Part shown: positions 935 through 20,217 of the stretch, in pieces
Position numbering within the stretch: position 1 is the first letter of the stretch
Layout: every line of letters starts with the position of its first letter
DNA from: a virus
Virus record (IMG/VR): IMGVR_UViG_3300035698_015730
Span: 1-21,039 of that record
DNA length: 21,039 nucleotides
Reading direction: 5' to 3' (one strand)
Notes under the pieces: generated by a model
Databases searched by the model: none
What the model saw: the letters and a program-made list of their open reading frames with translations, nothing else
Told to the model about the DNA's origin: nothing
Translations under genes and position numbers: made by a program

Positions 935-1846
935 TTAAACTCCGGGAGACCCGAAGATGCCACGCTCATCAGAACAGCCGACAGCATATCGAGCGGAAGC
1001 TTTGTATTTGCCATTTTCGGTATCGAAATCATTGTCATGCTTGAAGTTATCAGCACGTCTTTCCTGATAAGTCAAGCCCTGAGGACAATTTGTAGTAACG
1101 AACCATGCTTTTTCATCAGTGAGATAATGATTAACTTCTGCACCCTTAGGAATCTTATTTGTCGCCTTAATCACGTTGATCGCGTTATTAGCGCTACCGG
1201 GTGTGAGGGTTGACATAAGAATCCTACTTGCATCAAACTCAAGGTCCGTAGGAATAACTAGAGCTTCTGGCCGGATAGCGATTTTTAAGCCCCTATCGTT
1301 TGTAAACTTACCGATATCTATACAAGCTTGTTCAAGGGAAGCCTCGCTAAGATCAGCAGCAGTTGCTAGTTCATTTGCCCATGTACCACCGGTGATCTTA
1401 ACATGCACCGCAGAGCAAAGTTCCACTCCGTCAGGCTGGGTGTAATCGCTGTTAAAAGCTCGGTTTAATACATTGGCGGCAACTGTTTCTTTGGTTTGTC
1501 TCATTGAGAAAGCAAGCGCAGTTGCTCTTGTTAGGGAGAACTGTGCGTATTGATTATCATCGTACATCTCTTCGGTTATAATAAAACCTAATGAATACGT
1601 CACATTAGTAAATCGTTTCGTATAACCTTGGATTGCGGAGTCGTAAGACACCGATCCGCCCTGGGTTTTAATTGGTGCAAGCCCAAAGCCGGTAGTACCC
1701 TGGACCTCTTCAAATGCTTTGTCAGAGGTCGTGAACTTGAATACTTTGCTGTATTCAGGTGTATGTTCCTTATATGCCATGCCATAAATGGCTTTTATGC
1801 CAGGCCACAGCAACTTAGGAAAACTGCCAGTAGTTATAACGCCCAT
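935..1846 (-). CDS. Major capsid protein, probable HK97 fold
   Basis: A 303-residue protein with start ATG 1846 and a close AAAGGAT binding site. The N-terminus (ITTGSFPKLLWPGIKAIYG) resembles that of phage major head proteins of the Mu gpT-like class, which share the HK97 fold. The internal SLGFIITEEMYDDNQY segment and a C-terminal half rich in beta-type residues fit as well. Size and position, immediately downstream of a decoration-like protein and a scaffold-like protein in a portal-terminase operon, support the call. It would form the icosahedral shell. The assignment comes from recalled family resemblance plus gene order, not a search. Confidence 0.82.
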   Translation of the reverse strand: MGVITTGSFPKLLWPGIKAIYGMAYKEHTPEYSKVFKFTTSDKAFEEVQGTTGFGLAPIKTQGGSVSYDSAIQGYTKRFTNVTYSLGFIITEEMYDDNQYAQFSLTRATALAFSMRQTKETVAANVLNRAFNSDYTQPDGVELCSAVHVKITGGTWANELATAADLSEASLEQACIDIGKFTNDRGLKIAIRPEALVIPTDLEFDASRILMSTLTPGSANNAINVIKATNKIPKGAEVNHYLTDEKAWFVTTNCPQGLTYQERRADNFKHDNDFDTENGKYKASARYAVGCSDERGIFGSPGV

Positions 1847-6918: not shown

Positions 6919-9900
6919 CTAATAACCCGTAACACTACTCCTGCCAAGCTCTCTATATGGATAATCATCTTCATCGTCATAATCATCTACAGCAGTATTT
7001 ATGCTCTGGAATATCCTTACAATTGCGTATTGCAAGGCGTCATGGATATGTGAAAAGCGGTTCTTAGACGGCTTATCGGAATACCATTCTGTGTTACCGA
7101 TTTTCGGGTAACAGTATCCTCCAAGAAAACCATTGAGTAGTCTTGCGAGAGCTGGATCGATTGTTAACCCATTAATCCTGCCCAGCAATTGTTCAACGGC
7201 GTTTATTCTCATTGTTAGGTTCTGTTCAGACGGATATACTTCTACTCCGCATTCTTCGTACATAATCTTTGAATTACTGGTAAATCCACCACTACCGCGG
7301 CTATATTCATTGTCGCCTGCAGGATCCCCGAAATCTAAATACTTCGCCCCAGGGAATCTTTGATTACAAACCGTCACCACTCCTGTTGCAAAAGCAGCAA
7401 TATTTTCTCTGTCGGTTGTGAATTCAAGTAATGCCTGTACGCTTGTATCTGTTGGCATATCCAAAACAATCGCAGCTGGTATATTCCCCGAGTTATCCCA
7501 ACCCCTTATGATCTTACCACCTTTCCACTCTAACGGTGTTCGGGATTCGTGCATGTCTCTCCGGAAGTTATTATATATGATCTTACCCTTGATGATAATA
7601 CCAGGTTTCCCCTGTATATACATATCGGCCCAGTCAGGATCGTCTTTATAGTCATTCTTTAAATCTTCATAATATCCTTCTCTTAAATTCTCTTCATTCT
7701 CATATGGCGGTTGCCAAAACCCAGCATGTCCTGGGAGAGGCTCATCCTTTGGTTTCGGTCCTGGAGGCGGTACGTTCCAAGCAAACTGTGAATATGTGGG
7801 GTGTTCTACGTCTGGCGGGTTAGTTGTTTCAATTCCAAATCTTACAGGACATTTCTTCGGATATCTTCCTAATCTGTTTTTTAACATCTTTTTAACGTTT
7901 TCATCGACTTCAATACTTTCGTCTATCCAATATCCGGTTAATTCCAAGGATTTAAACTTCTTAACATCATCAGGGTTATCACAACTCCTGAATAATAACT
8001 CGGCTACAACATCAAACTGCGGATGCCTGATGTACATAATTTTATTGCCGAGTTTCGATTTTTCGAAGTATTCGGCCATGGGGAACCATTCGCGGACCGT
8101 CTTTAGGGTCGTGTCTATGAGTTCGGGATAAGTCTGGCCTGACCATACAGCCTTACCATTACGCCTAACATAAACGACATGAGAAGGAACTTCAACACAA
8201 TAAACGGTTCCATCGTATTCTTGCTTCGACCAATGTTTCTTTAGTATCATTGGGTAAGAACGTAGTTTTGTTCTTATTGTTATTGTATACCCACCTTTTA
8301 CACCATTTATAGCAGAACATTTACCGGATTTGAATATTATTTCTTGCAGATCATCGGCAAGTTGTTTTGAAGAAGTATAGAGAATATCAACTTTTTTAGG
8401 ATTCCCGTTTTTAAAACTACCATCACCTTCCTGGTATCCTTTGAGGAAAGCTCTTAAATGTGCTACCGGTGCGTTTTTTATCCATTGTGGTATAAACTTT
8501 GTCTTTGCTTTCCCATATTGAGATAATTCGGTTATTAACTGTTTAATAAATAAAGGAGCTACACTCAAAACATAATTATAGCATCTATTTAAAGAATTAT
8601 TACTATACTTCCCAAAATCTAACTTTTTAGAAATGCTATATTTTAATTTATTCTTTTCTAATAATTTTTCAACATACATATCCTCTCTTGGGTTTTGGGT
8701 TAAAATTAATCTATATTTATTATAAGCCCCACTTCTACTGTCTTTGTATATTCCAGCACATCCTTCGGCATACCAAAAACCTAAAAATTCATAAAACGCC
8801 TCTGACTCACTAGTTTCGCCACCATTCCATTCCCCGACAGAACTCATTCTGTTCAACATACCAATCCCATATATATCTTCGGCCTTCACTTGCTCATATT
8901 CATTCCACACTTTCTTACGTGTTTTTCTTTTTGATATCCAGAGATGATGATTGGGTGTAACTAGTAAATCCATATTATGTGATTTAATGCCTATCATTTC
9001 ACCTTTATATGGCGATAGATAATAACCCGTGGGGAATTCATAAACTAGTTTGCCGTTAACATTCGTAGCAACTTTATCTGTACATAACAAGTCTTTAAAC
9101 AGAACCCACCCACGCAACTCAGTTAAAATTTCCGCTTGATCATCGAAACAATTTCTTATTACAGCCCAACGAGTTACCTTAATTCCGTACTTCTGAAAAA
9201 GGAAGAGTGGCTTGTAAAAACCTACCTCCATGGAAGCCGCTGATGTCTTTCCGGAATTGCCGGAAACGAATATTCTTCCATTGCGCCTTAGGACCAACAT
9301 TCCGGTTGGCACGGTAAAGCAATATTTAAATCCATCTTCGGATGGTTTTTTACTTATCTCACAACTATCGTTCCGCATTATCACTTTGGACTTAATGGAT
9401 CCCTTTGGAGCGATATGCACAATATATACTGGGTTCCAACCCTTATCATCATAATGATCCGTTGATATTGTTGCCCTACCACCTGTTGCATGGACAGCGT
9501 ATTGCATAAAGTCAGCTTCATCTTTATGAGTAGTGCTAAATCTTGTATCGCTTCCTTCGTACAAACCATCCCAATTTGACATTTCATCTATTACAATCTC
9601 CAGTTGCCGCTGTGATAATCTCCACCCAAAATCAGTAAGTTTTTTGGTTTTTATTGGTGGCACAAATGCATACCCAACTTCTGTCGGCCTATTCTTGGCA
9701 GGATGAACAGTAAATGCTATTCCTGCAGCTATCAACAATTGCTGCAACCGTTCTTTTTTTCTTTCTTTTCTTAACACCACTCTTTGCTTTATGCCATTCT
9801 TATCAATACTTCCATCGGCACAAAACATCACCATTACTCTCAGTTCCGCAGCACTTATGGGACAATCTCTTTCGCATACCGTGAAATTAATAGGTATTTC

Positions 9901-10335
9901 GAACTTTCCTGGATTATCATATACCTCTTCGGCTAGTCTTATAAAAATATCTCCAGAATCATCATAGAACACCATCCGATGTTCCTTGCTAACAACCATT
10001 GACATAGAGTGCTTATTTTCAAACACCAAAAACTCTTTACATGGTTCTTTTATATACGCCCCAGGAAATGTCCATGATAGCCTACCGTCAGCTCCCCATT
10101 GCCCAACAACGTCACCTTCAGCATACTTGTCAAATCGTTTCCAGCCATGAGGCGTTAGGTACTCGGTACTCGCATCCAGACAGCCAACTGGGCCAACTAT
10201 GCATCGCATCTGCTCACCGCATTCGTGAAATTCTTTAATCGTTGGTATAAGATTATACGTTACTTTTTCAATCTTTTGTTGTTCCATTGAATTTTTTAAG
10301 ATCCTCTTCGAGTTTATCGATTTCGGCTCTAACAT
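6919..10335 (-). CDS. terL: Terminase large subunit containing two inteins
   Basis: The open frame encodes 1138 residues. Removing two inteins (residues 52-360 and 396-734) leaves a 490-residue terminase of normal length. The joined extein restores a perfect Walker A box, GPVG (48-51) plus SGKT (361-364). Then follow VIRN (392-395) joined to TYPEL (735-739), and the Walker B YWIDES (802-807). The C-terminal nuclease has an RNase H-like acidic set: GWD (947), DFGD (1001 and 1004) and HIHD (1099). This motor cuts and pumps DNA through the portal. Numbering is from ATG 10335. Met17 (10287) may be the true start, since it gives the shorter N-terminus usual in the family; neither has a strong binding site. 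Without splicing the P-loop is broken, so activity must depend on intein removal. Confidence 0.92.
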   Translation of the reverse strand: MLEPKSINSKRILKNSMEQQKIEKVTYNLIPTIKEFHECGEQMRCIVGPVGCLDASTEYLTPHGWKRFDKYAEGDVVGQWGADGRLSWTFPGAYIKEPCKEFLVFENKHSMSMVVSKEHRMVFYDDSGDIFIRLAEEVYDNPGKFEIPINFTVCERDCPISAAELRVMVMFCADGSIDKNGIKQRVVLRKERKKERLQQLLIAAGIAFTVHPAKNRPTEVGYAFVPPIKTKKLTDFGWRLSQRQLEIVIDEMSNWDGLYEGSDTRFSTTHKDEADFMQYAVHATGGRATISTDHYDDKGWNPVYIVHIAPKGSIKSKVIMRNDSCEISKKPSEDGFKYCFTVPTGMLVLRRNGRIFVSGNSGKTSAASMEVGFYKPLFLFQKYGIKVTRWAVIRNCFDDQAEILTELRGWVLFKDLLCTDKVATNVNGKLVYEFPTGYYLSPYKGEMIGIKSHNMDLLVTPNHHLWISKRKTRKKVWNEYEQVKAEDIYGIGMLNRMSSVGEWNGGETSESEAFYEFLGFWYAEGCAGIYKDSRSGAYNKYRLILTQNPREDMYVEKLLEKNKLKYSISKKLDFGKYSNNSLNRCYNYVLSVAPLFIKQLITELSQYGKAKTKFIPQWIKNAPVAHLRAFLKGYQEGDGSFKNGNPKKVDILYTSSKQLADDLQEIIFKSGKCSAINGVKGGYTITIRTKLRSYPMILKKHWSKQEYDGTVYCVEVPSHVVYVRRNGKAVWSGQTYPELIDTTLKTVREWFPMAEYFEKSKLGNKIMYIRHPQFDVVAELLFRSCDNPDDVKKFKSLELTGYWIDESIEVDENVKKMLKNRLGRYPKKCPVRFGIETTNPPDVEHPTYSQFAWNVPPPGPKPKDEPLPGHAGFWQPPYENEENLREGYYEDLKNDYKDDPDWADMYIQGKPGIIIKGKIIYNNFRRDMHESRTPLEWKGGKIIRGWDNSGNIPAAIVLDMPTDTSVQALLEFTTDRENIAAFATGVVTVCNQRFPGAKYLDFGDPAGDNEYSRGSGGFTSNSKIMYEECGVEVYPSEQNLTMRINAVEQLLGRINGLTIDPALARLLNGFLGGYCYPKIGNTEWYSDKPSKNRFSHIHDALQYAIVRIFQSINTAVDDYDDEDDYPYRELGRSSVTGY
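8134..9150 (-). other. Intein 2 of terminase, with LAGLIDADG endonuclease and terminal Gln
   Basis: Residues 396-734 (339 aa) begin with Cys396 (CFDDQAEILTELRGW). Block B is LLVTPNHHLW with the TxxH pair Thr460/His463. Two LAGLIDADG motifs are clear: EFLGFWYAEG (516-525) and LRAFLKGYQEGDGS (627-640), each with an acidic residue, so the homing endonuclease looks intact. Block F is VYCVEVPSHVVYVRRNG. The intein ends SGQ, followed by extein Thr735, so Gln replaces the usual terminal Asn. Gln-ended inteins are known but uncommon. It sits after the VIRN strand, another conserved terminase site, only 35 extein residues after intein 1. Confidence 0.9.
9256..10182 (-). other. Intein 1 of terminase, inserted inside the Walker A loop
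   Basis: Residues 52-360 (309 aa) begin with Cys52 (CLDASTEYLTPHGWKRF, intein block A) and end SGN, followed by extein Ser361. Block B is VVSKEH, with Ser where Thr is usual in TxxH; His is at 119. Near the C-terminus, YCFTVPTGMLVLRRNGRIFVSGN gives blocks F and G. The last residue is Asn, but the usual penultimate His is Gly. The middle holds a LAGLIDADG-type region: LRVMVMFCADGS (165-176) and LEIVIDEMSNWDG (245-257). The second motif is degenerate, so endonuclease activity is uncertain. The insertion splits the P-loop between Gly51 and Ser361, a known hot spot for inteins in ATPases. Confidence 0.9.
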
Positions 10336-13069: not shown

Positions 13070-13150
13070 TAGACATAGCACTTTACGCCAATTTGCACAC
13101 ATTGCACACAACTTGCACACAACATTGCACACGGCTGAAACCCTGATTTT

Positions 13151-13293
13151 ATTGCTTCTATATATATATATCTATACTTGTAAGCAATATATATATATAA
13201 TAGACCTTAATGAGAGAGTTTTCAAAAATTAAAATAATAAATACATAAATAAAAAGGTAAAATAAATAATAAATACATATATATATATATAAG
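13151..13293. repeat. AT tracts and imperfect palindrome
   Basis: Runs of alternating TA lie near 13159-13172, 13187-13199 and 13275-13291. ATTGCTT (13151-13157) and AAGCAAT (13182-13188) form an inverted pair around the first tract. TGTAAGCAA occurs at 13049-13057 and 13179-13187. The DNA would melt easily, which fits an origin unwinding element. Confidence 0.5.
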
Positions 13294-13408
13294 GGTATAA
13301 AATTCTGCACACTTGCACACAAACCACTTAACATATTGTTATTATTATAACTTAAATGTATGCAAACTTTGCACACAGTATGCAGATTAATAGTTATACT
13401 GTTATCGC

Positions 13409-13424
13409 ACAATAACTTACAGCG
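13409..13424 (+). repeat. 16-base direct repeat, copy 2
   Basis: Identical to 12428-12443 (ACAATAACTTACAGCG), 981 bases apart. Confidence 0.6.
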
Positions 13425-13677
13425 ACAACAACATTATATCATTACTATGCTTTGCATAACAGTGTCTTATGGTAGATTGCACAATACATGTGTAATTAAT
13501 AATACCAAATCTTGTGTGCAAAATATGACATAAAACATGAAATACACCAATAATGCACCATAAATAATATTGTTATGTAAAGTTTTTTTGTAGTCGTAAA
13601 CAGTTGAATTATAACAAACGACAAAAGAACAAGTGTAAAGGTTTCAAAACTATTTTCACATCACATCACGAATTTGC
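13425..13677. other. AT-rich stretch without genes
   Basis: No coding frame with a start and binding site was found. Only scattered GCACA or TGCA words and a weak TTGTAG/TATAAC promoter-like pair near 13590-13615 were seen. It forms the right part of the control region. Confidence 0.4.
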
Positions 13678-13706
13678 TTGACAAGAATAATACTATCAAC
13701 TATTAT
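13678..13706 (+). promoter_or_regulatory. Rightward consensus promoter of the early operon
   Basis: TTGACA (13678-13683), a 17-base spacer and TATTAT (13701-13706), nearly ideal sigma-70 elements. The start site would lie near 13713. The transcript then has a leader of about 225 bases before the first gene, including a candidate ribozyme. Confidence 0.8.
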
Positions 13707-13865
13707 ATGTATAACAAACGCAAACAATAAACCAAAGGAGTTTAACGCTCGTATAGACTGGCAAACTAAATAAAACAACTCTTACACGGTTAGAAAACCC
13801 TACATGGAGATAAATAGACGGCACTACCAAGAGCCTGAGAAGAGCTAAAAAGGAAAAGACCGTCA

Positions 13866-13922
13866 AGATTGTTTACGAGTACATCTCGTACTGATGATAG
13901 CGTAGTAAGCTTGAAACATTCT
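13866..13922 (+). ncRNA. Hammerhead ribozyme candidate A, type III-like
   Basis: Stem I TACGAG/CTCGTA (13874-13879, 13885-13890) with a 5-base loop is followed by the exact core CTGATGA (13891-13897). Then come a weak stem II (AGC/GCT with a T-T pair next to the core) and GAAA (13913-13916). The open stem III pairs ACATTCT (13916-13922) with AGATTGT (13866-13872) with one T-T mismatch. The cut would follow T13873 (GTT triplet). Stem II is poor, so this copy may be weak or decayed. Confidence 0.5.
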
Positions 13923-13926
13923 AACA
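13912..13926 (+). repeat. 15-base direct repeat TGAAACATTCTAACA
   Basis: The same 15 bases occur at 14082-14096, each time just upstream of a start codon (13939 and 14110). The first copy supplies the GAAA and stem III strand of ribozyme candidate A. The second has no hammerhead core nearby. Confidence 0.55.
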
Positions 13927-13938
13927 AGTGAGGGCAGC

Positions 13939-14073
13939 ATGGACAGGAGAGAGATTTCAAGAGCATTAGCCAAAGCGATTGCATACAAGAATTGCGGAAA
14001 AGACAAAGAAGCGGAAGAGTGGGCAAGAAAACTTATTGAACTACTTGAACTCGAACAAATATTAAAGAGGTAG
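13939..14073 (+). CDS. 44-residue helical protein, first gene of early operon
   Basis: MDRREISRALAKAIAYKN and onward, strongly helical and charged, ending ELLELEQILKR. Start ATG 13939 is preceded by AACAAGTGAGGGCAGC. The length is short but the binding site, operon position and composition support it. No family recognised. It may be a small regulator. Confidence 0.6.
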   Translation: MDRREISRALAKAIAYKNCGKDKEAEEWARKLIELLELEQILKR

Positions 14074-14109
14074 TAGGAGGGTGAAACATTCTAACAGGGA
14101 GTTAAGAGC

Positions 14110-14370
14110 ATGAATGCAACAAGAGAAGAATTTGATACAATATCCAAGATTGCAAACAGAGCTATTAAACTCGGTATTAATAAAGAAAGCGATAAACTTT
14201 CAATGGTAATGGATATTGATTACACAAATAAAGTCATACCTCTTGACCTTGAAGGCTTATTACATTCTACTTTACAGGATTTCATACATGATATTATCGG
14301 TATTTATAATAATTTCAATCGTGAAACCTTGCAGATGGATAATTTCTTTGTGCCAAGATACGCTAAATAG
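14110..14370 (+). CDS. Small phage protein resembling DUF6874
   Basis: An 86-residue protein with GGGAG before ATG 14110. The order of motifs is EFDTISKIANRA, MVMDIDYTN, PLDLEGLL, DFIHDIIGIYNNFNRET and FFVPRYAK. This matches from memory a short protein widespread in phages (I recall DUF6874, not checked), in which LDL-x2-LL, F-x-HD-x2-GI and PR-x-A are the conserved landmarks. Its role is unknown. Its stop codon lies within stem I of the hammerhead that follows, so ribozyme folding and translation end would interact. Confidence 0.75.
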   Translation: MNATREEFDTISKIANRAIKLGINKESDKLSMVMDIDYTNKVIPLDLEGLLHSTLQDFIHDIIGIYNNFNRETLQMDNFFVPRYAK

Positions 14371-14423
14371 TGCTGATGAGGATTTATAATCCGAAACTGC
14401 TCCGAGAGGGGCAGTCCACTATT
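14366..14423 (+). ncRNA. Hammerhead ribozyme B, type I
   Basis: Stem I AATAGTG (14366-14372) pairs with CACTATT (14417-14423), 7 pairs. The core CTGATGA (14373-14379) is exact. Stem II GGATT/AATCC encloses TAT (14380-14392). GAAA follows at 14393-14396. Stem III ACTGCTCC/GGGGCAGT has a GAGA tetraloop (14396-14415). C14416 is the cleavage base (GTC), so the RNA would be cut between 14416 and 14417. Every conserved core base is present. It lies between two early genes and covers the stop codon of the first. Confidence 0.88.
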
Positions 14424-14448
14424 AATCAACACTAACAAGGAGGAAGTA

Positions 14449-14640
14449 ATGAAAATTACACTTAATCAAATCGAATGTTTGGCAATCAAAGTAGCATTAA
14501 TAGAGTATTATCAAACAATTTCTAAAGAGGTATTAAAGAAGGATATTTGTTCGCCAGCTAAGGATATGCACTTGGCTATCAAACATTTAAAAGATGACTT
14601 TAAAAATACATGTACTTTAGTCAGTAGAAAAGGTGCATAA
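14449..14640 (+). CDS. Small early protein, unknown
   Basis: A 63-residue protein starting at ATG 14449 with AAGGAGGAAGTA upstream, an excellent site. The sequence MKITLNQIECLAIKVALIEY reads as a helix, followed by KDMHLAIKHLKDDF. It has two cysteines apart from C10 but no metal motif. No family recognised. It is translated from the segment downstream of the ribozyme B cut. Confidence 0.7.
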   Translation: MKITLNQIECLAIKVALIEYYQTISKEVLKKDICSPAKDMHLAIKHLKDDFKNTCTLVSRKGA

Positions 14641-14677
14641 TTTAACCACTAATTAACTATTAACAGGAGGTTACCCT

Positions 14678-14809
14678 ATGTTCCAAGTCAGAATCAGGAA
14701 AAGCACGTTTTCCTGTATCACTGTACACAGTTTATTTATTGCCGGTATGATTGCTAAACGAATACAGGCACTTGGCTATAATGTAAAGATTTATTGCGTT
14801 ATTAAGTAG
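14678..14809 (+). CDS. 43-residue early protein, unknown
   Basis: MFQVRIRKSTFSCITVHSLF and onward, ending GYNVKIYCVIK. ATG 14678 follows AGGAGGTTACCCT, a strong site. The layout is strand, helix (LFIAGMIAKRIQALGY), strand. It could be a small alpha-beta protein like those seen in phage early regions. No family recognised. Confidence 0.65.
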   Translation: MFQVRIRKSTFSCITVHSLFIAGMIAKRIQALGYNVKIYCVIK

Positions 14810-14824
14810 CAAGGAGGTTAAACG

Positions 14825-15004
14825 ATGTGTCAAAGCTGTGAAGTATTAAATATTAATGGTATGAATTGCCATGAGCATGGTTGTCCTGGCGCATGGCAGG
14901 ATGAAGTAAGGCATTGTGCATGGTGCGGTCAGGAATTTAAACCAGAAACTAAACATCAAATATGTTGCGATGAAATTTGCATGGATAGTTATTGCGGTTA
15001 TTAA
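14825..15004 (+). CDS. 59-residue Cys/His-rich zinc-binding protein
   Basis: ATG 14825 follows AAGGAGGTTAAACG. The protein has 11 cysteines and four histidines: C2, C5, C15, C20, C31, C34, C47, C48, C52, C57 among them. HCAWCGQEFKP followed by HQICCDEIC is a plausible zinc finger similar in style to the next gene's C-x2-C...CC-x3-C. A nucleic-acid or protein-binding role is likely. Its stop codon is directly next to hammerhead C. Confidence 0.7.
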   Translation: MCQSCEVLNINGMNCHEHGCPGAWQDEVRHCAWCGQEFKPETKHQICCDEICMDSYCGY

Positions 15005-15058
15005 GTTATCCCGATGAGGCTTTATGAGCCGAAACTGCCCGAAAGGGCAGTCGATAAC
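15005..15058 (+). ncRNA. Hammerhead ribozyme C, type I, with core variant
   Basis: Stem I GTTATC (15005-15010) pairs with GATAAC (15053-15058). The core reads CCGATGA (15011-15017), so the usual U4 is C. Stem II GGCT/AGCC has a 5-base loop (15018-15030). GAAA is at 15031-15034. Stem III ACTGCCC/GGGCAGT has a GAAA loop (15034-15051). C15052 is the cleavage base. All helices are perfect; the U4 change is expected to slow cleavage. Confidence 0.8.
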
Positions 15059-15087
15059 AGGCAAACGAACATTAACAAGGAGTGAGT

Positions 15088-15267
15088 ATGGCAGACGATA
15101 GAGATCAATCGACATTGTTTAATCTGAGTGAGTATTATAAGCCAGTTGCAAAGGAAACTTATGCAATATGCGAGGGATGCGGAAACAGGTTTTTGCAGAA
15201 ATATGAGGAGCAGCTATGTTGCAGTAGGAAATGTGAGGAACGTGTTTTAGGACTTGAACTATTTTAA
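15088..15267 (+). CDS. 59-residue zinc-finger protein
   Basis: ATG 15088 was chosen because AAGGAG ends 5 bases before it; the GTG at 15082 overlaps that site. The pattern ICEGCGNRFLQKYEEQLCCSRKCEER gives C-x2-C and CC-x3-C, a zinc finger of the kind in the preceding gene, so the two may be paralogues. N-terminus DRDQSTLFNLSEYY. DNA or RNA binding is possible but unproved. Confidence 0.7.
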   Translation: MADDRDQSTLFNLSEYYKPVAKETYAICEGCGNRFLQKYEEQLCCSRKCEERVLGLELF

Positions 15268-15283
15268 CAAGGAGTATTGAGAC

Positions 15284-15844
15284 ATGAGTTATGACGTGGT
15301 TAAATCTGTTAAGATTGAAAATGGTAAAGTTTTTATTAACTGTGCTTGTAGCAATGTGTATCCGAGAACGTTTGAAGAATGGGAAAGCAAACAACTATCG
15401 GAACTGTTAAAGGAAAAAGGTGTTGAGGCGGTTGAACTGGAAATAATGAAAGCATATGAGGAAGGGAACTTTCAAGGAAGTAGCGGTAAATACATCAGAG
15501 CATTAAAAGTATTACAGCATATGCCGGAATACGCTGAGTTTGACTGGAGGCTCGGCGGTATAAGAAGCGAACAGTACGAAACAAACAGTAAAAACCGGAA
15601 AGAAAGAGTTTCAGAGTTTGAGGCAATGCTGACAAAAGCACTTGTTACACAGTTGCCAAAGGATAAGTTTGTTATCAAAAAATCTCACGGTGGAATACCT
15701 GTATATGTGATGAAAGTAACCAAGAGGTTTGTGCAATGGACAGGTGGAACTAACAGAAAGATATACAAGTATTATGACGATGCCAAGCAGTTGATTGATA
15801 GATGTTCGGGTAGCGACGAATGGGAAGTGATTAAGATTAATTGA
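15284..15844 (+). CDS. 186-residue early protein, unknown
   Basis: The longest early gene, with TTTAACAAGGAG shortly upstream of ATG 15284. The N-terminus is beta-like (VVKSVKIENGKVFINCACSN). A charged helical middle part follows (residues 35-110), then FVIKKSHGGIPVYVMKVTKRFV and a YKYYDDAKQLIDRC helix with a WEVIKI end. There are no clear catalytic motifs, signal peptide or membrane segment. I do not recognise the family. The phage early position suggests host takeover or DNA metabolism, without evidence. Confidence 0.7.
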   Translation: MSYDVVKSVKIENGKVFINCACSNVYPRTFEEWESKQLSELLKEKGVEAVELEIMKAYEEGNFQGSSGKYIRALKVLQHMPEYAEFDWRLGGIRSEQYETNSKNRKERVSEFEAMLTKALVTQLPKDKFVIKKSHGGIPVYVMKVTKRFVQWTGGTNRKIYKYYDDAKQLIDRCSGSDEWEVIKIN

Positions 15845-15930
15845 TAAATGTAGGAGGGAGGACGATATGCAGTCCTGCAAGTAATGGGGCTTGTTACTTA
15901 ATATACATATTCATTGCATAGACTGTAATA
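15845..15930 (+). other. Leader with five-codon ORF and hairpin
   Basis: After GGAGGGAGGACG there is ATG 15867 followed by four codons and TAA (15882-15884), encoding MQSCK. AAGTAA (15880-15885) can pair with TTACTT (15895-15900). A strong binding site before so short a frame could make a leader peptide, or it is the remnant of a gene start. It precedes ribozyme D. Confidence 0.3.
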
Positions 15931-15986
15931 GGTCGAAACTGCCTCGAAAGAGGCAGTCAATAGTTGATGACTATTCTGATGAGACC
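15931..15986 (+). ncRNA. Hammerhead ribozyme D, type II
   Basis: The order is permuted. Stem II strand GGTC (15931-15934) and GAAA (15935-15938) come first. Then stem III ACTGCCTC/GAGGCAGT with GAAA loop (15938-15957) and cleavage base C15958. Stem I AATAG/CTATT has a 7-base loop (15959-15975). The exact core CTGATGA follows (15976-15982), and the second stem II strand GACC (15983-15986) pairs with GGTC. All core bases are conserved. Stem II is only four pairs. The RNA ends therefore lie in stem II, making it type II. Confidence 0.82.
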
Positions 15987-16005
15987 GAAACATAAGGAGA
16001 ATACC

Positions 16006-16287
16006 ATGAATGATCAGATGAGCTTATTTGAAATTGAAACAAAGCAAAAGGAGGAAGGCATGGGAATGTTTGGCTATGCGAAAGAATTTGAGAAACCGGC
16101 ACTAACCGAAAAGGTTATTGAGCAAGCACTCGTTGATCTTGAGGACAAAGAAAAAGGACTCGTTCATAATCCGATCCCAACGGATACATTCAGTAAATTT
16201 GTAAAGAGCCTGGCTAAAGATGGGTATGTGAAGACCGAAAGAAAAATAGACGGACAGACCGTACAAACATTTAAAAAGGAGAAGTGA
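16006..16287 (+). CDS. 93-residue early protein, unknown
   Basis: ATG 16006 is set by AAGGAG 7 bases before it; a longer frame from TTG 15964 would run through ribozyme D and is rejected. MNDQMSLFEIETKQKEEGMG opens with a motif (QMSLFEI) like a sliding-clamp or partner-binding tail. A helical middle and TDTFSKFVKSLAKDGYVKT, then RKIDGQTVQTFKK, look like a small winged-helix C-terminus. No family recognised. Confidence 0.7.
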   Translation: MNDQMSLFEIETKQKEEGMGMFGYAKEFEKPALTEKVIEQALVDLEDKEKGLVHNPIPTDTFSKFVKSLAKDGYVKTERKIDGQTVQTFKKEK

Positions 16288-17893: not shown

Positions 17894-18805
17894 ATGGACA
17901 ACTTAATAGATTTTTTAAAACGATTTGATACAAAAGAAAAATGCCTAAAACATTTAGAAAGTGTTAGGTGGGGCGATGGAGAGTATTGCCCTTATTGTGG
18001 TGGAATTGAAAAGATATATCACTATAGCGATAATATGCGCCATAAATGTGGTGAGTGTGGTCGTGTTTTCCGTATTACTGTTGGAACAATCTTCTCAAAC
18101 AGTCCTATCAAAATACTCCCCAAGTGGTTTGCCGCTATCTGGCTAGATACTTGCCACTCTAAGGGAATTTCAAGCTTACAATTATCAAAAGACATTGGTG
18201 TAACGCAAAAAACAGCATGGTATATGTTACAACGTATACGCCACGCGGCAGGCAATAGTAAAAAAGAAATGCTTGGTGGAGATGTAGAAATAGATGAAAC
18301 ATATCTAGGTGGAAAAGAGAAAAATAAACATGCAAGCAAAAAAACAAAAGGCACTCAGGGGCGTAGCACAAAGACTAAAACGGTAGTCTTTGGAATGAGA
18401 GAACGCGGTGGAAAAACTAAAGCATTTGTAGTAAAATCTGCATCATCACAACACATAATACCTCCAGTTATAAAAAACATTGCTCTCGGTTCACAGATCC
18501 ACGCTGATGATAATAGAGGCTATTCGCTCCTAGAAGAGTATTACTCTGTCGGTCGGGTAGTACATAGTAATGGTGAATACGTGAGAGGCACAATACATAC
18601 AAACAGTATTGAAAGTTTATGGGCGTTGCTTAAAAGAATTTATATTGGCATACATCACCATTGGAGCGAGAAACACGCAAAGAGATATATTGATGCTTGC
18701 TTATTTAGATTAAATACAAGAGAAGATACTAGGCTTTCACGAGTTTTTTCCTTGCTTGATCAGGGCGTTAGTATTAGTTTACCATATAAGGAGCTTATAG
18801 CATGA
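17894..18805 (+). CDS. IS1595-family (ISXO2-like) transposase
   Basis: A 303-residue protein. An N-terminal zinc ribbon has C32-x2-C35 (CPYCGG) and C52-x2-C55 (CGECG). A helix-turn-helix follows (SSLQLSKDIGVTQKTAWYML, about 93-112). The catalytic core has VEIDETYLGGK (Asp134), QIHADDNRGY (Asp205) and HTNSIESLWALLKR (Asn237, Glu240). This zinc ribbon plus IDE-x-YxGGK core is the signature of ISXO2-like transposases, and the length is normal. The enzyme cuts at the terminal repeats and moves the element by a DDE-type reaction. The ATG has AAAGGG 6 bases before it. The stop overlaps the methylase ATG (ATGA), so they are translated together. It looks intact. Confidence 0.95.
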   Translation: MDNLIDFLKRFDTKEKCLKHLESVRWGDGEYCPYCGGIEKIYHYSDNMRHKCGECGRVFRITVGTIFSNSPIKILPKWFAAIWLDTCHSKGISSLQLSKDIGVTQKTAWYMLQRIRHAAGNSKKEMLGGDVEIDETYLGGKEKNKHASKKTKGTQGRSTKTKTVVFGMRERGGKTKAFVVKSASSQHIIPPVIKNIALGSQIHADDNRGYSLLEEYYSVGRVVHSNGEYVRGTIHTNSIESLWALLKRIYIGIHHHWSEKHAKRYIDACLFRLNTREDTRLSRVFSLLDQGVSISLPYKELIA

Positions 18806-19659
18806 ATAACAATATATTACAATTTGATTCTGTTTTAAAAATAACAGAAAAACCTCTATTGAATAAGCCGTTAGCATCGCCTTTTTTGAAATGGGCTGGT
18901 GGTAAACGCCAAATGATTCCAGAAATATCAAAATATATGCCCGGTAAGATAGATACATATTGGGAACCATTTGTAGGAGGTGGAGCAGTATTTTTTACAT
19001 TTGCAGATCGCATAAATAGAGCTATTTTATCAGATACAAACGAAGAACTTGTACTAGCATACCACGTCGTTAAAACAAACCCACACGAACTTATAAGCTT
19101 ACTAAAGGAACATCAAGACAACCACTCGAAAGAGTATTACTATCAGATTAGAAAAGAAGAACCAGAAACGGCAGTAAAAATCGCAGCAAGACTTATGTAC
19201 CTCAACAAAACATGCTTTAATGGGCTTTATCGTGTAAATAATAGTGGTAAGTTTAATGTCCCAATGGGGCGATATAAAAACCCAAGTATTTGTAACGTGG
19301 GCTCTATACTTGCAGCATCGAAAGTATTAGAAAAAGCAACTATAAAGGTCGGCAGTTTTGAAAAGATAGTAAAGCCCAATAATGGCGATTTTATTTACTG
19401 TGATCCGCCTTATGATGGATGTTTTACTGATTACCAAGCAGGAGGCTTTAGAGATACAGAGCAAAAAAAGCTCCAAGTAGCAGTTAATAAGTGGTCAAAC
19501 GATGGTGCAAATGTGATGATAAGTAATTCCGATACAAGTTTAATCAATAATCTTTATTCTCAGTACAATATACACGATGCCCCTGCATCACGAAACATAA
19601 ATAGTGATGGAAATGGGCGATCCAAAATAAATGAACTGGTGATAACAAGCTATGACTGA
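18802..19659 (+). CDS. D12-class DNA adenine-N6 methyltransferase (Dam-like)
   Basis: A 285-residue protein close to the length of Dam and M.DpnIIA-like enzymes (about 270-285). Motifs in order: PFLKWAGGKRQMI (27-39) and EPFVGGGAVFF (55-65), which bind S-adenosylmethionine. Then LNKTCFNGLYRVN (134-146), typical of the D12 class, and the catalytic DPPY (201-204). The enzyme transfers a methyl group to the N6 of adenine; GATC is the commonest target of this class but cannot be proved here. The ATG overlaps the transposase stop. Paired with the next gene, it would protect DNA from the nuclease. The N-terminal 20 residues are a family-variable extension. Confidence 0.92.
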   Translation: MNNNILQFDSVLKITEKPLLNKPLASPFLKWAGGKRQMIPEISKYMPGKIDTYWEPFVGGGAVFFTFADRINRAILSDTNEELVLAYHVVKTNPHELISLLKEHQDNHSKEYYYQIRKEEPETAVKIAARLMYLNKTCFNGLYRVNNSGKFNVPMGRYKNPSICNVGSILAASKVLEKATIKVGSFEKIVKPNNGDFIYCDPPYDGCFTDYQAGGFRDTEQKKLQVAVNKWSNDGANVMISNSDTSLINNLYSQYNIHDAPASRNINSDGNGRSKINELVITSYD

Positions 19660-20107
19660 CGGTAAAAAGGCAAACAAGCGCGGCACTTCATTAGAATCGT
19701 GGACTATGGACTTATTACTGGATACATATGAACAAGTATCTCCTAAACATTTTTTCGCATTAACCGAGTTAAAACAACCCATATTTGCACACCAATGTAC
19801 CGTAGGCAAAGACATATACAATAAAAATAGACGTGTTGACTTCATCCTCTATCATCCGTTTAAATGGCAAGACTGCTTAATTATACAATGTAAATGGCAA
19901 GCTTCGCGCGGTAGCGTAGAAGAGAAGTATCCTTTCGAGGTTTTGTCAATTCAAACAATATCCATTCCGGCAATAATAGTGCTTGATGGAGGTGGTTACT
20001 CAAAAGGGGCTCATGATTGGCTGAAAGGTCAATCTGGCAAAACCAAGTTGCTACACGTATTTTCGATTGGTGAGCTTCAAAGATTTGCAAGTAAAGGCAA
20101 TCTTTAG
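19652..20107 (+). CDS. Probable type II restriction endonuclease (PD-(D/E)XK-like)
   Basis: A 151-residue protein overlapping the methylase by 8 bases. RRVDFILYHP (Asp63) followed by LIIQCKWQ (Gln79, Lys81) gives the D...(E/Q)-x-K core of the PD-(D/E)XK fold, with Gln in place of the usual acidic residue. A helix with Glu15 lies before it (GTSLESWTMDLLLD). EEKYPFEVLSIQ and IPAIIVLDGGGYSKGAHDWL complete an alpha-beta fold of this group. The gene's stop is flush with the right terminal repeat, so the frame seems whole. It should cut unmethylated sites of the partner methylase. It may instead be a related nuclease with another use. Confidence 0.72.
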   Translation: MTDGKKANKRGTSLESWTMDLLLDTYEQVSPKHFFALTELKQPIFAHQCTVGKDIYNKNRRVDFILYHPFKWQDCLIIQCKWQASRGSVEEKYPFEVLSIQTISIPAIIVLDGGGYSKGAHDWLKGQSGKTKLLHVFSIGELQRFASKGNL

Positions 20108-20129
20108 GATCGTCTAATATATAATTCCC
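20108..20129 (-). repeat. Right terminal inverted repeat
   Basis: Read on the minus strand it begins GGGAATTATATA and ends CGATC, like the left end. It starts directly after the nuclease stop codon. GATC lies at 20108-20111. Confidence 0.92.
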
Positions 20130-20137
20130 TAAACAAT
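20130..20137 (+). repeat. Target-site duplication, right copy
   Basis: TAAACAAT, identical to 17794-17801. Confidence 0.92.
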
Positions 20138-20173
20138 AAGCCCCCACTTCAATTAAGGAGTGGGGGCTTTTTT
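20138..20173 (+). terminator. Intrinsic terminator of the early operon
   Basis: GCCCCCACTTC (20140-20150) pairs with GGAGTGGGGGC (20157-20167) around AATTAA, with six T following. It is very stable. Before the IS inserted, it lay five bases after the stop of the gene at 17497. It now also ends the IS operon. The minus-strand side has weaker T content but could stop leftward transcripts as well. Confidence 0.93.
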
Positions 20174-20217
20174 CTGCTAATATTCCATTCAGAATTTATC
20201 TTCTATGCAAACCGGTT

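Follow-up and report, generated by a model that had tools for sequence, protein, structure and literature searches.

Hammerhead ribozymes between the genes of a phage operon: stop codons, hairpins, and a tentative role in forming mRNA 3′ ends

A phage operon with hammerhead motifs between its genes

The window analyzed here is the whole of IMG/VR record IMGVR_UViG_3300035698_015730 (21,039 bases), which its gene content identifies as a phage fragment, with a portal-like protein and a gpT-like capsid protein (935-1846, minus strand) encoded on the same record. From position 13,939 onwards, small plus-strand genes form an operon that could start at a predicted sigma-70-like promoter (TTGACA-17-TATTAT, 13678-13706, plus strand, 11 of 12 consensus matches). 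Between these genes lie three hammerhead ribozyme motifs, here called B, C, and D, and a degenerate type III-like element, A, is located in the operon leader. The placement of such motifs, followed across phage contigs, raises the possibility that they act as self-cutting punctuation in long early transcripts.

The first gene past element A encodes 44 amino acids (aa; 13939-14073) and is followed by an open reading frame (ORF) of 86 aa assigned to phrog_12453 (14110-14370), whose stop codon TAG (14368-14370) falls within stem I of B. Downstream of B, a 63-aa ORF (14449-14640) has a AACAAGGAGG leader in front of it, and a 59-aa cysteine-rich ORF with CxxC pairs reminiscent of a zinc ribbon (14825-15004) ends in a TAA (15002-15004) that adjoins C. 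Beyond C are a further cysteine-rich ORF (15088-15267; 59 aa counted from this ATG) and a 186-aa ORF without a family match (15284-15844), which is the last complete gene ahead of D; all of these ORFs, and the one 3′ of D (15964-16287), are on the plus strand. The listed start of the ORF 3′ of D is a TTG within D, and an ATG near 16006, just past the Shine-Dalgarno sequence (AGGAG, about 15992), is the more likely start. In IMG/VR, searches with the 186-aa and 86-aa gene products returned no related proteins, and no nucleotide relatives of the operon were found in known phages. Around the phrog_12453 homologues of six named phages, the descriptor described next found no hammerhead within about 5 kb.

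Hammerheads were located with a descriptor of the conserved core and its three stems, scanned on both strands of the window and of 200 dinucleotide-preserving shuffles of it. In its strict form, the descriptor matches exactly three motifs in the window and 0.01 per shuffled window (both strands). These are B (14366-14423, type I, stems of 7, 5, and 8 bp, predicted cut after 14416), C (15005-15058, type I, stems of 6, 5, and 7 bp, predicted cut after 15052), and D (15931-15986, type II, stems of 7, 4, and 8 bp, predicted cut after 15958), all on the plus strand and all with the coordinates, cut sites, and types given by the original prediction, a reading of the bare sequence by a model. The core CUGANGA...GAAA with UH at the cut site is exact in B and D; C deviates by a U4C change (CCGATGA). 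For all three, the minimum-free-energy fold is the hammerhead pairing, with three helices joined at the core and folding z-scores of -3.0 (B), -4.4 (C), and -4.65 (D). In D, a tertiary contact between stems I and II may form by pairing of the UGAUG in loop I with a CAUAA that lies 3′ of stem II. After the predicted cut in B, the stem III hairpin is retained on the upstream fragment. By sequence and fold, B, C, and D are real hammerhead ribozymes for which cleavage is predicted.

The covariance-model search proposed as a check on the original prediction placed all of the window hammerheads under the Rfam gathering thresholds. The best scores were 28.4 and 24.4 bits for RAGATH-1 (RF03152; cut-off 56.3), 18.6 bits for Hammerhead_3 (cut-off 48.5), and 14.2 bits for Hammerhead_II (cut-off 37), and RF00163 was absent from the window matches at E values up to 10. 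The window copies share the core and three helices with RF00163, RF02276, RF00008, and RAGATH-1 and score far under the curated thresholds; judged by its curated score and 5′ hairpin/pseudoknot region, they do not qualify as RAGATH-1. We dismissed the silence of Rfam as a refutation, as a gathering threshold is a curation cut-off and no biochemical definition. A pattern search recovered the core and stem III seen in B, C, and D from other viral contigs, 40 with type I and 12 with type II, and the three stems are paired in most of them. Because this combination recurs with paired stems in dozens of contigs, we read the low scores as limited sensitivity of the models to short phage hammerheads.

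Element A (13866-13922, plus strand, predicted cut after 13873) had been proposed as a weaker fourth motif of type III-like form, of which its place and its resemblance hold up; it fails the strict descriptor and its own fold is not a hammerhead. Stem I is intact (6 bp), stem II has 3 bp with a U.U at 10.1/11.1 replacing the first pair, and stem III retains 5 of 6 bp with one mismatch. A relaxed descriptor, written around A after A had been seen, gives 0.0007 matches per shuffled window. The hammerhead pairing of A has an energy of -8.4 kcal/mol against a minimum of -12.6 kcal/mol for the lowest-energy fold. Element A is probably a decayed type III hammerhead rather than a chance resemblance and is probably weak or inactive. 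A hairpin-like structure with a GACGGC/GCCGUC outer helix (13817-13864, plus strand, -12.0 kcal/mol, z -3.64) ends 1-2 nt ahead of it.

The copies in the window are partly related by descent. Similarity between B and C is not confined to the ribozyme but continues into the leader and the Shine-Dalgarno sequence (repeats D1 and D2), which identifies the two as duplicates with leader and Shine-Dalgarno included. All three of B, C, and D have a GAAAC-TGC stem III, which is rare in unselected type I and II copies (TGC is absent among the listed starts), so common descent of this segment is plausible. Copying, as first suggested, therefore stands for B and C and is plausible for the stem III of all three. 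The accompanying idea of circular permutation of B into D fails: permuted B gives CACTATT after the cut site and D has AATAGT, with the stem I strands swapped. The relation between stem I strands also bears on whether adjacent hammerheads could cut and ligate, freeing circular or spliced RNAs. Some arrays do share stem I between copies, and the two ends could then re-pair. In the window, however, B and C have non-matching stem I strands, and published efforts to find circular or spliced products of such arrays were unsuccessful (PMC3088659). We give this explanation very little credence.

Stop codons and hairpins across phage hammerheads

Hammerhead arrays in phage operons are already known, and the window by itself is one further array. 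Perreault et al. 2011 (PMC3088659) described prophages in which single genes or short blocks often have several flanking hammerheads, of type I, II, or III, and proposed that these process transcripts into smaller mRNAs. Three tandem prophage arrangements cleave in vitro, and the Agrobacterium tumefaciens set cleaves in Escherichia coli (PMC3088659). The window shares the layout of these clusters, with at least two hammerheads in successive gaps of a strand-coherent phage operon. What survives of the original array claim is that a single plus-strand early operon, preceded by a strong promoter-like site, has several hammerheads of different topologies in its successive gaps. Its unusual nature does not survive, as clusters of several types were published in 2011 (PMC3088659) and mixed arrays are common in IMG/VR.

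To the clustered prophage hammerheads of PMC3088659, the IMG/VR set adds arrays of mixed type. The survey comprises 410 pattern-found IMG/VR loci with 518 hammerheads after k-mer de-duplication; its patterns select hammerhead sub-families, and its gene calls come from a simple codon-based caller. At least two hammerheads are present in 148 loci, 28 of which are of mixed type and three of which hold all three types, and up to 12 motifs fall within 11 kb. Strand orientation is uniform in 145 of the 148 array loci. In a 39.8-kb contig (L010, IMGVR_UViG_3300042884_000166), 15 hammerhead core matches fall on one strand, and the reversed pattern gives 0. Where the gene upstream of a hammerhead has an identifiable function, it is mainly an early gene, for replication or anti-restriction. 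Outside this set, a pattern search of named bacterial genomes returned only two matches, and no hammerheads were found in the stretches examined from known-phage relatives of the portal and from a weak match to survey locus L256.

The position of the upstream gene's stop codon depends on topology. Measured as the end of the stop codon relative to the ribozyme start, the offset has a median of 0 for type I (94% within -12 to +20, n = 177), where the stop often lies within stem I or is the core's own UGA, and of -1 for type II (86% within the same range, n = 115). For type III the median is -32.5, with only 6% in that range (n = 68). These distributions differ at p = 5e-31 (III vs I) and p = 1e-22 (III vs II), values that ignore phylogeny among copies that are not fully independent. 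The behavior of type II had been forecast ahead of retrieval of the main type II set, and the forecast came true. The space ahead of type III is typically occupied by a hairpin, which stands directly 5′ of the ribozyme in 77% of type III copies (62/81) against 11% in shuffles and in 87% of those with a stop 10-70 nt upstream. The corresponding frequencies are 10% against 7% shuffled for type I and 13% against 11% shuffled for type II. Downstream of type I and II ribozymes, no excess of flanking hairpins was found. In 47 of 62 cases the type III hairpin directly abuts the ribozyme, and the tail from hairpin to cut has a median of 6 nt. These hairpins are diverse in sequence, with 46 distinct 5-mers among 72. 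In the window, B (stop inside stem I) and C (stop adjoining stem I) obey the rule, and element A with the structure ahead of it roughly fits the type III arrangement, but no gene lies in front.

One explanation for these offsets is genome compaction combined with ribosome clearance, under which ribozymes sit wherever short gaps allow and the type III spacer keeps the terminating ribosome off the cut site. Median distances from stop to cut are indeed broadly alike (45, 26, and 37.5 nt for types I, II, and III). However, such a spacer need not be a hairpin, yet 77-87% of type III copies have one. In addition, gaps before type III exceed those before types I and II within the same contigs: at loci carrying type III together with I or II, the offsets still differ (p = 1.5e-7), and this within-locus control argues against compaction as the cause. 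We regard the clearance explanation as distinctly unlikely. A second explanation is a folding insulator. Here the hairpin would stack on the short open stem III of type III and block mispairing with upstream sequence, serving folding rather than mRNA stability, and its position flush with stem III in those 47 of 62 cases is what coaxial stacking would want. Types I and II also have an open stem (stem I and stem II, respectively) with the same need, yet these types have neither an upstream hairpin frequency much above shuffled sequence nor a downstream excess, which leaves the insulator unlikely as an explanation of the pattern.

A third view is that hammerheads are selfish or neutral elements that spread by duplication in phage operons and bring gene expression no benefit. 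It draws on the duplication of B and C along with their leader and on stem I 6-mers, which type I copies share at 27% within a locus and 1.6% between loci. Drift, however, would not preserve a topology-specific layout of stop codon and hairpin over hundreds of divergent loci, and we judge the selfish account improbable.

Several loci of the survey are of interest for their own details. In L181, L191, L199, L200, L210, L230, and others, a recurrent hairpin, GTGTCTTCAAAGACAC, stands ahead of unrelated type III hammerheads; this one family covers 13 of 72 hairpins, a pattern suggesting that hairpin and ribozyme may move together. In L424, L450, L460, L472, and L482, the upstream gene's stop codon lies in or near the hairpin loop directly before a type III ribozyme. 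The type III hammerheads of L443 directly follow the stop codon and directly precede an ATG, with no space for a Shine-Dalgarno sequence, which suggests a different grammar or leaderless genes. In L025 (192-264, minus-strand coordinates), the stem III region of a type I hammerhead has two consecutive GAAAC-stem III units; array copies may have recombined, or the assembly may be wrong.

A possible role in mRNA 3′-end formation

The three topologies have one feature in common: the upstream fragment ends in a stop codon, a hairpin, and a short 3′ tail. In every type, the 3′-terminal 40 nt of the upstream product show strong structure. The downstream product has a structured 5′ end in types II and III, where topology dictates it, and not in type I. 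Two other candidates for a common principle were ruled out, namely a constant 5′ hairpin on downstream products, which type I lacks, and ribosome gating, as a ribosome at the stop codon would overlap a type I or II ribozyme but not one of type III. The 3′ exonucleases of bacteria stall at short-tailed hairpins and need a longer single-stranded tail, and a 5′-OH is a poor substrate in 5′-monophosphate-dependent decay. For these reasons the ribozymes may be catalytic substitutes for terminators in long early transcripts.

In the proposed mechanism, each cut would fall past a gene's stop codon and ahead of the next Shine-Dalgarno sequence. The upstream mRNA would then end in a stop codon, a stable hairpin, and a tail of 1-8 nt bearing a 2′,3′-cyclic phosphate, an end that resembles that left by an intrinsic terminator and would resist 3′ exonucleases. 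The downstream mRNA would begin with a 5′-OH and a short A-rich leader. For types I and II, the hairpin would be the ribozyme's own stem III; for type III, cleavage would split the open stem III, and the hairpin would be a separate one immediately upstream. On balance we favor the view that B, C, and D act in cis in this manner, cutting one long early transcript at cistron boundaries and so making 3′ ends without stopping the polymerase. The broader reading is that phage hammerheads are self-cutting punctuation, with the order of stop, hairpin, and cut kept in every topology and a dedicated hairpin only before type III, acting as catalytic terminators that give each cistron a protected 3′ end as transcription continues. 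This reading is tentative, and we put its probability at roughly 45%. The motifs, positions, hairpins, and dependence on topology rest on sequence, and from them we infer cleavage in vivo, protection of the 3′ end, and a benefit to the phage.

A number of observations weigh against the punctuation reading. A second type III set, defined by another stem III and judged against preset marks of 60% (pass) and 25% (fail), had hairpins in 17 of 30 cases (57%, against about 19% shuffled), just under the upper mark; several of those hairpins span the stop codon, with the stop in the loop in L450, L460, and L482, for example, and other loci have no flush hairpin. Gene ends without a hammerhead also have hairpins, at about 40% against 24% shuffled. 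Because types I and II carry their hairpin by definition, only type III is informative. Within the window, D lies 87 nt past the nearest ORF of at least 35 aa and is an exception to the stop rule, although it keeps the 3′-end hairpin, and the structure ahead of A fails the survey's simple-stem criterion. Finally, C carries the U4C core, which is found in 2 of the 214 type I motifs of the survey. U4C is a known natural variant with lower activity in vitro, yet enough for viroid infectivity (PMC3088659).

Comparison with known systems helps to place the proposal. Intrinsic (Rho-independent) terminators likewise leave an upstream RNA ending in a GC-rich hairpin and a short 3′ tail, but the phage hammerhead end has no U-tract and would be made by RNA cleavage with transcription continuing. 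The type III hairpin runs into the stem III strand, and the T fraction of the first 8 nt is 0.37. The theta ribozymes of gut phages (PMC10879173) are also phage self-cleaving RNAs whose cut defines the 3′ end of the preceding RNA; they differ in having a fold like that of hepatitis delta virus ribozymes and in adjoining tRNAs rather than mRNAs. Stop codons are not mentioned in the main text of PMC3088659, and the position rule and type III hairpin are absent from the parts of it covered. Judged against the open-licence literature, the position and hairpin rule appears to be new, and it may be known elsewhere. A 2023 paper still called the reason for hammerhead genomic associations unknown (PMC10085705). 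If correct, the punctuation reading would answer why phages keep hammerhead arrays, and some phages would shape their mRNA ends by RNA catalysis instead of by terminators and RNases.

Other features of the window

At the end of the operon (17894-20107), an IS1595-type transposase, a D12-class adenine methyltransferase, and a PD-(D/E)XK nuclease follow in a row, which looks like a restriction-modification pair next to an insertion element. Just beyond, a match to Yfr10 (20103-20182) is below threshold (39.9 vs 43 bits); its two hairpins, with a T-run after the second, are probably a real terminator of the operon and not Yfr10. On the minus strand, a 1138-aa ORF (6919-10335) has separate matches to PhoH-like, RNR, thymidylate synthase, endonuclease, and terminase families and is probably a terminase broken by at least one intein. 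A possible origin or regulatory region lies between the two divergent gene blocks at 13080-13560; it is AT-rich and contains TA runs as well as TTGCACAC words that recur.

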